A DNA stretch of 64,000 bases from Wolbachia endosymbiont of Litomosoides brasiliensis (lineage in GTDB: Bacteria > Pseudomonadota > Alphaproteobacteria > Rickettsiales > Anaplasmataceae). Numbering within the stretch: position 1 is the stretch's first letter; the number at the start of each line of letters is the position of its first letter. Below the pieces are notes generated by a model. That model saw only the letters and a program-made list of their open reading frames with translations. It was not told the origin of the DNA and searched no databases. Shown here piece by piece: positions 32,059 through 45,320 of this stretch. Location of the stretch: assembly GCF_013366805.1 (NCBI RefSeq), contig NZ_WQMO01000003.1, positions 1-64,000 of the forward strand, given 5' to 3'. The position numbers and the translations under genes were made by a program.

Positions 32059-32259
32059 ATGTTAAAAAGTTTGAGTGTCTTTTTTTGTGATATAAAGCAG
32101 GAAGTAAGAAGAATTGCCTGGGTGAAAAAGCAAGAAGTTTTATCATCTCTATTTGTTGTAGTGATTGTTATATTATGCTTTTCAGTTTTCTTTTGCTTTG
32201 TAGATTTTATATCTCTTCATGCGATTAGGGCTTTATTTGGGATTGTCTATGGCATATGA
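32059..32259 (+). CDS. secE: Preprotein translocase subunit SecE
   Basis: SecE is the small clamp subunit of the SecYEG channel in the inner membrane. The 66-residue single-helix form has the conserved amphipathic start (DIKQEVRRIAWVKKQEVLSS), with the 'VxWPxxxE' region reading IAWVKKQE, then one transmembrane helix (about residues 31-51). Its last bases overlap the nusG start by 11, implying coupled translation. Confidence 0.92.
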   Translation: MLKSLSVFFCDIKQEVRRIAWVKKQEVLSSLFVVVIVILCFSVFFCFVDFISLHAIRALFGIVYGI

Positions 32260-33085
32260 CCATAAATGGTACGTTGTTAAAGTTGATCATGGACATGAGA
32301 GGAGTATACTTGAGTTGGCAAGCAATGCTGCCTATTTTAAGGAGGTATTTATTCCTTATCAGACAGTATATAACTCGAAGTTTAATATAAAAAAAGCATA
32401 TGAAGTGTATGTATGTATGTATCTATGTGATGAGAGTAGGGATATTTTAAGCAAAACGCTTGGGTTTCACGGTGGTGGTTCTGGTGGTTTTAAAATAGTT
32501 TCGGATGAAGAGGTAGATTCGAAGCGTAAGGAATTCAATAAATATAAGTGGTATATTTTAAGGGTTGCTTCCAATTATGAAGAAAAGGTGTGTCAACACG
32601 TACTGGAAAATTCTATGAGATTAGGGATTAATGGTTATTTTAAGGAAGTTTTCATTCCGTACGAGGAAGCAAATGAAGTAGAACTAAGATCTAAAAGAAC
32701 TGCTATACGAAGAAAGTGTTTCCCTGGTTATGTTTTTTTATATGTGAATTTGTGTGATGAAGTGCTAAATTTTGTCAATAATATACCAAAGTCTCTTAAA
32801 GTCTATGGGTTCTTAAAAAATGGCAACGTTCCAAAAGTGATTTCGGATGATGAGGTTCGCTCAATGTGTGATGCACTTTACAATGCTCAAGAAACAAAAA
32901 AGTTAAGCCATGGTTATGAAAAAGGTGAAAAGGTAAAAATTAATGATGGTCTTTTCCAAAACTTTACTGGTAAGGTAGATGTGATTAATGATGAAAAGAG
33001 AGTTATTAATGTAGAAGTGTCAATTCTAGGCAAGCCAACAATAATAGAGCTTGATCTAGCTCAAGTAGAGAAAATAGAGGATTAA
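32249..33085 (+). CDS. nusG: Transcription factor NusG with a duplicated NGN-like domain
   Basis: NusG binds RNA polymerase, supports elongation and links to Rho or the ribosome. The start MAYDHKWYVVKV (32249) overlaps secE; the product is 278 residues, against about 180 for normal NusG. The excess is an extra N-terminal domain: residues about 6-95 (KWYVVKV, FKEVFIPYQ, KIVSDEEV) parallel residues about 102-210 (KWYILRVASNYEEKV, FKEVFIPYE, CFPGYVFLYVNL, KVISDDEV). The second copy has the PGYVFL motif and is followed by the KOW domain (EKGEKVKINDGLFQNFTGKV). The first copy lacks the PGY motif and is diverged. Position between secE and rplK fixes the identity. Confidence 0.93.
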   Translation: MAYDHKWYVVKVDHGHERSILELASNAAYFKEVFIPYQTVYNSKFNIKKAYEVYVCMYLCDESRDILSKTLGFHGGGSGGFKIVSDEEVDSKRKEFNKYKWYILRVASNYEEKVCQHVLENSMRLGINGYFKEVFIPYEEANEVELRSKRTAIRRKCFPGYVFLYVNLCDEVLNFVNNIPKSLKVYGFLKNGNVPKVISDDEVRSMCDALYNAQETKKLSHGYEKGEKVKINDGLFQNFTGKVDVINDEKRVINVEVSILGKPTIIELDLAQVEKIED

Positions 33086-35200: not shown

Positions 35201-43738
<8,538 letters not shown>

Positions 43739-44529: not shown

Positions 44530-44558
44530 TTGACGTTTATTAAATATTACTATATAAT
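44530..44558 (+). promoter_or_regulatory. Promoter of ssrA
   Basis: TTGACG (-35) at 44530-44535 and TATAAT (-10) at 44553-44558 are 17 bases apart, the closest match to the vegetative sigma consensus that I saw in the window. Transcription would start near 44565. Confidence 0.8.
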
Positions 44559-44564
44559 AGCTGA

Positions 44565-44866
44565 GTGTACTTTATACGCTATGGCAATAAAATTACCTTG
44601 TAATAGGTGTATTGGACCCGAGGGCAGTACTCGGCGCCTCCACCATATTTTCAGTTTACATGGGGGCGAGTAAGGATCGACATGCATAGTAAAGATGGTA
44701 ACTTTGCTCGGTTAGATACCACCGCTAAGAGTTCATAATTTAAATGCAAACGATAATTTTGCTGCTGAAAACAATGTTGCGGTAGCTGCTTAATTTAAGC
44801 ACTATAACTTCATTGCTATAAGCACGGTTTAGGGAACGCCGGGTAACAGAAGTTCCCCAGAATTCA
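44565..44866 (+). ncRNA. ssrA: tmRNA, permuted two-piece form
   Basis: tmRNA rescues stalled ribosomes and tags the nascent chain for degradation. The gene is circularly permuted. The acceptor piece comes first and ends GCGCCTCCACCA at 44645 (CCA encoded). After an intervening loop of about 16 bases (44646-44661) the coding piece begins GGGGGCGAGTAAGGATCGAC at 44662; GGGGGCG pairs with CGCCTCC of the acceptor piece. The tag frame 44746-44793 reads ANDNFAAENNVAVAA then TAA. A GGGAAC/GTTCCC pair (44832-44857) marks a late stem. The 5' end is set from the promoter and the 3' end is approximate. Confidence 0.93.
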
Positions 44867-44867
44867 C

Positions 44868-45320
44868 ATGTTTAAAATTTATATGGATAAGGCAAGTTAT
44901 AAGAAATCACTCAATTCTGCCAAGTTTCAAGTTATCAGAAAGGCGTTAGGTATTATATCAGGTGGGAGCTTCACTCCTCACTTAGAAATATTATTTTTCA
45001 CGTGTTTTAATAGTGTTATCATACCGGATTACTTAAGAAAGTCATATCCCACTCAAATGCTTATTATATTGCAGCATCAGTTTTATGATTTGAAAATTTT
45101 TGAGGATAAATTTAGCGTTAATTTGAGTTTTCGCGGGAAACAAGAGCAAGTTACCGTGCCGTTTTTTGCTATTGGTGAATTTCATGATAAAATTTCAGGA
45201 GATGTTTTAATATTTGACAAAATCAGTATCGATTTTGACAAAGAATATAAAAGTGAGAAATGTACTGAGAATTCGTTAAATGATAGTATTATATCTATAG
45301 GCCAACTGCGTGATAAGTAG
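44868..45320 (+). CDS. sspB: ClpXP adaptor SspB (alphaproteobacterial type)
   Basis: SspB binds ssrA-tagged proteins and hands them to ClpXP. The 150 residues match the SspB fold: a lead helix (KFQVIRKALGIISGG), LEILFFTCFNSVIIPDYLRK, MLIILQHQFYDLKIFEDKF (the signature block, usually 'IVLQHQFWDL'), VNLSFRGKQEQVTVPFFAIG, then a variable acidic C-terminal tail that in other species ends in a ClpX-binding peptide (here IISIGQLRDK). ATG codons at 44868 and 44883 both fit. It starts immediately after ssrA, whose tag it should recognise. Confidence 0.88.
   Translation: MFKIYMDKASYKKSLNSAKFQVIRKALGIISGGSFTPHLEILFFTCFNSVIIPDYLRKSYPTQMLIILQHQFYDLKIFEDKFSVNLSFRGKQEQVTVPFFAIGEFHDKISGDVLIFDKISIDFDKEYKSEKCTENSLNDSIISIGQLRDK

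Follow-up and report, generated by a model that had tools for sequence, protein, structure and literature searches.

A NusG with two tandem NGN domains in Wolbachia, encoded in one gene cluster with a fused rpoBC

Introduction

To our knowledge, no family of transcription factors other than NusG/Spt5 is conserved throughout all forms of life. Its members normally have a single NGN domain. In the bacterial form of the protein, as known from Escherichia coli NusG, one NGN is followed by a KOW domain. Symbionts of the genus Wolbachia are very widespread and have few regulators of transcription. A general NusG carries an extra domain in some other bacteria. In Thermotoga maritima this domain, called DII, is inserted inside the NGN. 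It has been reported to stabilise the complex between NusG and the polymerase (PMC7819879), and an extra domain likewise interrupts the NGN of Aquifex NusG (PMC3382729). Binding of the NGNs themselves to the clamp helices of the polymerase involves a hydrophobic depression that is conserved, and the gate loop is contacted as well (PMC3382729; PMC7819879). In archaea and eukaryotes, a second small module stands beside the polymerase-binding NGN of Spt5, namely Spt4, a separate zinc protein with another fold (PMC3382729). The polymerase genes can also depart from the common arrangement, and fusions of rpoB and rpoC have already been reported in Wolbachia and Helicobacteraceae (PMC7483510).

Here we describe a NusG encoded in a 64,000-nucleotide stretch of Wolbachia DNA (the window), which differs from that of E. 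coli in that the usual NGN is preceded by another, altered one. This two-NGN NusG is a new domain architecture in a known family, unreported as far as our searches reach. The open literature searched gave no description of a NusG with two NGN domains and nothing on point for a NusG with ankyrin repeats.

Results

The nusG gene (32249-33085, forward strand) starts with an ATG at 32249, with a longer in-frame alternative at 32219, and encodes 278 amino acids up to a stop codon ending at 33085. It belongs to a cluster with the order secE-nusG-rplK-rplA-rplJ-rplL-rpoBC, the same as secE-nusG-rplKAJL-rpoB in E. coli. The rpoBC fusion reported for this cluster in a preliminary description of the DNA is real: a single forward-strand frame of 2842 amino acids (35210-43738) joins the beta and beta-prime genes, with the junction near residues 1429-1444 (39494-39541), and rplK, rplA, rplJ and rplL lie between it and nusG. 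The secE gene (32059-32259, forward strand), named from its size, its type of sequence and its synteny with secE-nusG of E. coli, overlaps nusG by 11 nt (32249-32259), which suggests coupled translation. Downstream of rpoBC, ARAGORN predicts an asterisk-marked tmRNA (44553-44884) with the tag ANDNFAAENNVAVAA, perhaps of the permuted two-piece kind of alphaproteobacteria.

Pfam places the NGN domain twice in this protein, at residues 5-90 and 100-206. The first copy, NGN1 (residues 1-97; 32249-32539), is followed by NGN2 (residues 98-212; 32540-32884), which matches PF02357 with 62 bits and contains PGYVFL at residue 159, and by the KOW domain (residues 218-278; 32900-33082), all on the forward strand. 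The Pfam match to KOW is weak and under the Pfam cut-off, and the domain is assigned from TIGR00922 and from structural matches of NusG KOW domains to residues 220-278. The NCBIfam equivalog model for nusG, TIGR00922, covers just residues 101-276 (192 bits against a cut-off of 135.7), so that the extra NGN precedes a complete, ordinary NusG; by the match of this model over its whole length, NGN2-KOW is the canonical part, like E. coli NusG. The preliminary description had proposed the tandem from recurring motifs, and it was confirmed by Pfam, profile alignment and structure prediction. PGYVFL occurs only in the second copy, which TIGR00922 spans together with KOW. The motifs KWYVVKV/KWYILRV (residues 6 and 100), FKEVFIPYQ/FKEVFIPYE (30 and 131) and KIVSDEEV/KVISDDEV (82 and 196) do recur in the same order. 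However, their spacing, first described as matching, is only roughly so: the motifs of copy 1 are separated by 24 and 52 residues and those of copy 2 by 31 and 65. The differences, of 7 and 13 residues, are due to the shorter loops of copy 1.

The repeat goes beyond a chance resemblance. Residues 1-99 alone match PF02357 (E 2.6e-6, 28.3 bits against a curated cut-off of 22.2), and the alignment of NGN1 with NGN2 by hhalign, built on the NusGs of 39 Wolbachia, has a probability of 99.1 with 33% identity over 89 columns, whereas the control alignment of NGN1 with KOW gives 4.8. In AlphaFold2 models made with nine Wolbachia sequences, residues 1-97 show the order E-H-E-E-H-E-H both within the full-length protein, where the mean pLDDT of 10-residue blocks goes from 46 to 88 with its minimum at a variable loop, and in isolation (mean pLDDT 70, pTM 0.63). 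The full-length model has a pTM of 0.53, too low to place the domains, and NGN1 was not observed to touch NGN2, the polymerase or another partner. Alignments in the fold search with this model were nearly confined to NGN2-KOW, and NGN1 was therefore modelled separately. The best PDB match of the separate model is the NGN of E. coli NusG, 2k06 (Foldseek E 6.4e-4, TMq 0.64), and most of the top rows in VIA-align are NGNs of NusG, RfaH or Spt5, with a middling Z of 7.4. A search of the PDB with the sequence of NGN1 alone gave insignificant matches, a NusG NGN at E about 1 included, and does not count as evidence here. The structure prediction that had been put forward as a check thus has residues 1-97 folding as an NGN, and the NGN fold of this region is accepted here as a modelled one.

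NGN1 has lost several features of its neighbour. The PGY motif (residues 159-161 here), which we take to be part of the clamp-binding pocket from NusG and RfaH structures, is present in 39/39 NGN2 and absent in 39/39 NGN1, where two residues are deleted and the stretch is gone. Helix 1 and the hairpin that joins strands 2 and 3 are shortened in every NGN1, the helix by about 8 residues, and the hairpin has lost its basic character, so that all the NGN1 domains miss two elements of the polymerase-facing side, PGY and the basic hairpin. The mean net charge is -5.6 for NGN1 against +4.6 for NGN2, and 0 to +8 for the single NGNs of relatives, a contrast that may be incidental. With no PGY, shortened loops and an acidic character, NGN1 is unlikely to be another clamp-binding NGN of the ordinary type; its motif loss and the charge contrast make NGN2, and not NGN1, look like the clamp binder.

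All 39 Wolbachia genomes in which nusG is intact encode the extra domain (39 distinct sequences, all inspected; open frames of 280-304 amino acids), even where the Pfam score fell under threshold, and two fragmented genomes of the genus have no nusG. Among the 344 Rickettsiales genomes scanned, no two NGN matches were found outside Wolbachia. In a sample of 249 Pseudomonadota genomes, and among the matches listed, only the NusG of the window follows the two-NGN profile from its start, the others starting at profile position at least 64 and nearly all at 84-100. The relatives that match the full-length protein are from Wolbachia or from Rickettsiales bins, with 62-80% identity.

NGN1 is translated and under purifying selection, which is less strict than in the rest of NusG. 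On the same 286 pairs (Nei-Gojobori), dN/dS is 0.19 for NGN1, 0.12 for NGN2 and 0.10 for KOW, rough values since dS is high, and the highest pairwise value for NGN1 is at most 0.59, none approaching 1. Columns at 95% identity amount to 18% in NGN1 and 50% in NGN2, and the length of a loop varies among NGN1 domains. Overall, the conserved NGN1 is probably useful.

The status of rpoB and rpoC was fully surveyed within Anaplasmataceae, with at least 150 rpoC matches in the whole order. Both genes form one frame in intact Wolbachia genomes and in a second genus, g6, and are separate in the other genera. In a tree of RpoB and RpoC, g6 adjoins Wolbachia (SH-aLRT 93, by a quick method), and the fusion junction is identical, for which a single fusion event is the simplest reading. 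Mesenet has been reported as the sister genus of Wolbachia (PMC12445526), and g6, from its sister position, is probably Ca. Mesenet. Like Wolbachia, this genus combines the fusion with an N-terminal extension of NusG (L041-L043, genomes G018-G020), but the extension is not NGN1: residues 35-122 consist of ankyrin repeats (Ank_2 at E 3e-9), after which come a single, divergent NGN, where PGY is replaced by PRY, and KOW. The NusG frames are of 340-342 amino acids in g6 and of 171-193 in the seven unfused genera. The preliminary description had linked the additional domain to the fusion, and indeed none of the Anaplasmataceae relatives with separate rpoB and rpoC carries NGN1. A correlation of NusG length with the fusion stood as far as long NusGs are found only in fused genera, but NGN1 itself does not follow the fusion into g6, and the fusion therefore does not require NGN1. 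Moreover, fusion and NGN1 map to the same or neighbouring branches, so that a single fusion event underlies the correlation. The fusion and an extended NusG are found together in a single clade of the family, whose two genera added different domains and which has no independent replicate, and a link of NGN1 to the fusion is possible but weak.

Co-evolving changes in the clamp helices or the gate loop were considered and rejected. The clamp helices are nearly invariant in Wolbachia. The fused genera share RPGE in place of the RSGE of g3, g4 and g7, but RPGE or KPGE also occurs in more distant unfused genera. Another Rickettsiales family shows a further rpoB-rpoC fusion in one genome (G146, L101 1-5445), an open frame of 1690 amino acids with RpoB and the start of RpoC that ends at the contig end; the assembly is incomplete and nusG is absent from the assembled sequence, and it is not usable as an independent case of fusion. 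Two RpoC frames are shorter than those of their relatives (1780 and 410 amino acids), in G037 (C1 721539-722522) and G025 (C1 615022-616002), perhaps from frameshifts or assembly errors.

Discussion

The best explanation overall, which we hold tentatively, is that NGN2-KOW works as NusG, whereas NGN1, a duplicated copy that retains the fold, acts in cis as an accessory module. We infer that a partial duplication, of the NGN in nusG itself or in a close relative, is the most likely source of the N-terminal NGN of Wolbachia NusG, and that it took place before the split of the known Wolbachia lineages. Both copies share motifs such as YFKEVFIPY and LCDE and cluster with Anaplasmataceae NGNs, similarities that point to a duplication inside this lineage. 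AU tests on the domain tree (p 0.42, 0.30) reject neither a grouping of NGN1 with Wolbachia NGN2 nor one with other NGNs, which leaves the timing unset. NGN2 would be the sole clamp binder, on the beta-prime clamp helices and the beta gate loop, and KOW would contact partners. NGN1 has kept the fold, as predicted by modelling, but has lost PGY from its clamp pocket as well as the basic hairpin, and has turned acidic; placed in cis beside NGN2, it could stabilise NusG on the polymerase or offer a docking face to a partner.

By analogy, such a role would most likely be comparable to that of DII in Thermotoga NusG or of Spt4 on Spt5. As in T. maritima and Aquifex, the extra domain belongs to a general NusG; unlike those inserts, which are not NGN folds, it is a whole NGN ahead of the canonical one, and Wolbachia NusG falls outside the DII type, whose extra domain lies within the NGN. 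For Spt4, which differs from NGN1 in fold and in being a separate protein, the likeness may be one of role only.

Other readings of NGN1 have to be weighed against this accessory module. One could think of an autoinhibitory switch, following the logic of RfaH, in which NGN1 keeps NGN2 or KOW covered, to be released by a signal or a partner. An acidic NGN1 next to a basic NGN2, with almost no linker between them in the AlphaFold2 model, would suit such a device, but no contact is predicted, no paralogue was seen in the genome, and this NusG is the sole, general factor; we regard the switch as unlikely. NGN1 could also be a near-neutral relic of the duplication, kept merely as a soluble spacer. 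Its faster evolution relative to NGN2, its fewer conserved columns and its variable loop are also compatible with a weakly constrained spacer, but a dN/dS near 0.2 with no pair above 0.59, and a frame that stays open with its fold residues kept in every lineage, even in strongly reduced genomes, make a relic quite improbable. A two-headed NusG, whose NGN1 binds the clamp helices as any NGN does, could appeal to the predicted fold, but with the pocket PGY and the basic hairpin gone from the NGN1 of all Wolbachia it seems extremely improbable.

The preliminary description had suggested that NGN1 may cover another surface of the fused polymerase, or bind a ribosomal protein or Rho. In line with the former, NGN1 could compensate for the rpoB-rpoC fusion, covering a surface created or changed by it. 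In accordance with this, nusG and rpoBC share one gene cluster, and the NusG frames of the fused genera (280-342 amino acids) are longer than those of all seven unfused genera. Against it, g6 has ankyrin repeats in place of NGN1 with the same fusion and the same junction, only one fusion event is behind the correlation, and the Wolbachia clamp helices are almost unaltered. Helicobacter also has a fused rpoBC (PMC7483510). Its NusG is presumably of ordinary length. In our view compensation is quite unlikely. A broader version is that in the fused clade the NusG N-terminus turned into a place where modules are added, ankyrin repeats in g6 and NGN1 in Wolbachia, because the fusion altered the way in which NusG has to be held on the polymerase or recruited to it. 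Two different domains would then serve one new contact, which is very doubtful.

Returning to the accessory module, the whole genus Wolbachia keeps two NGNs and its sister genus the ankyrin version, both with a fused polymerase gene. This pair offers a clean comparison of how NusG gains functions and of what constrains its contacts with the polymerase, and purified proteins would allow in vitro testing. As a minor observation on the KOW domain, the residue encoded at 33026-33028, equivalent to F165 of E. coli NusG, a known contact with S10 and Rho, is Leu in 36/39 Wolbachia NusGs and Phe in 3.
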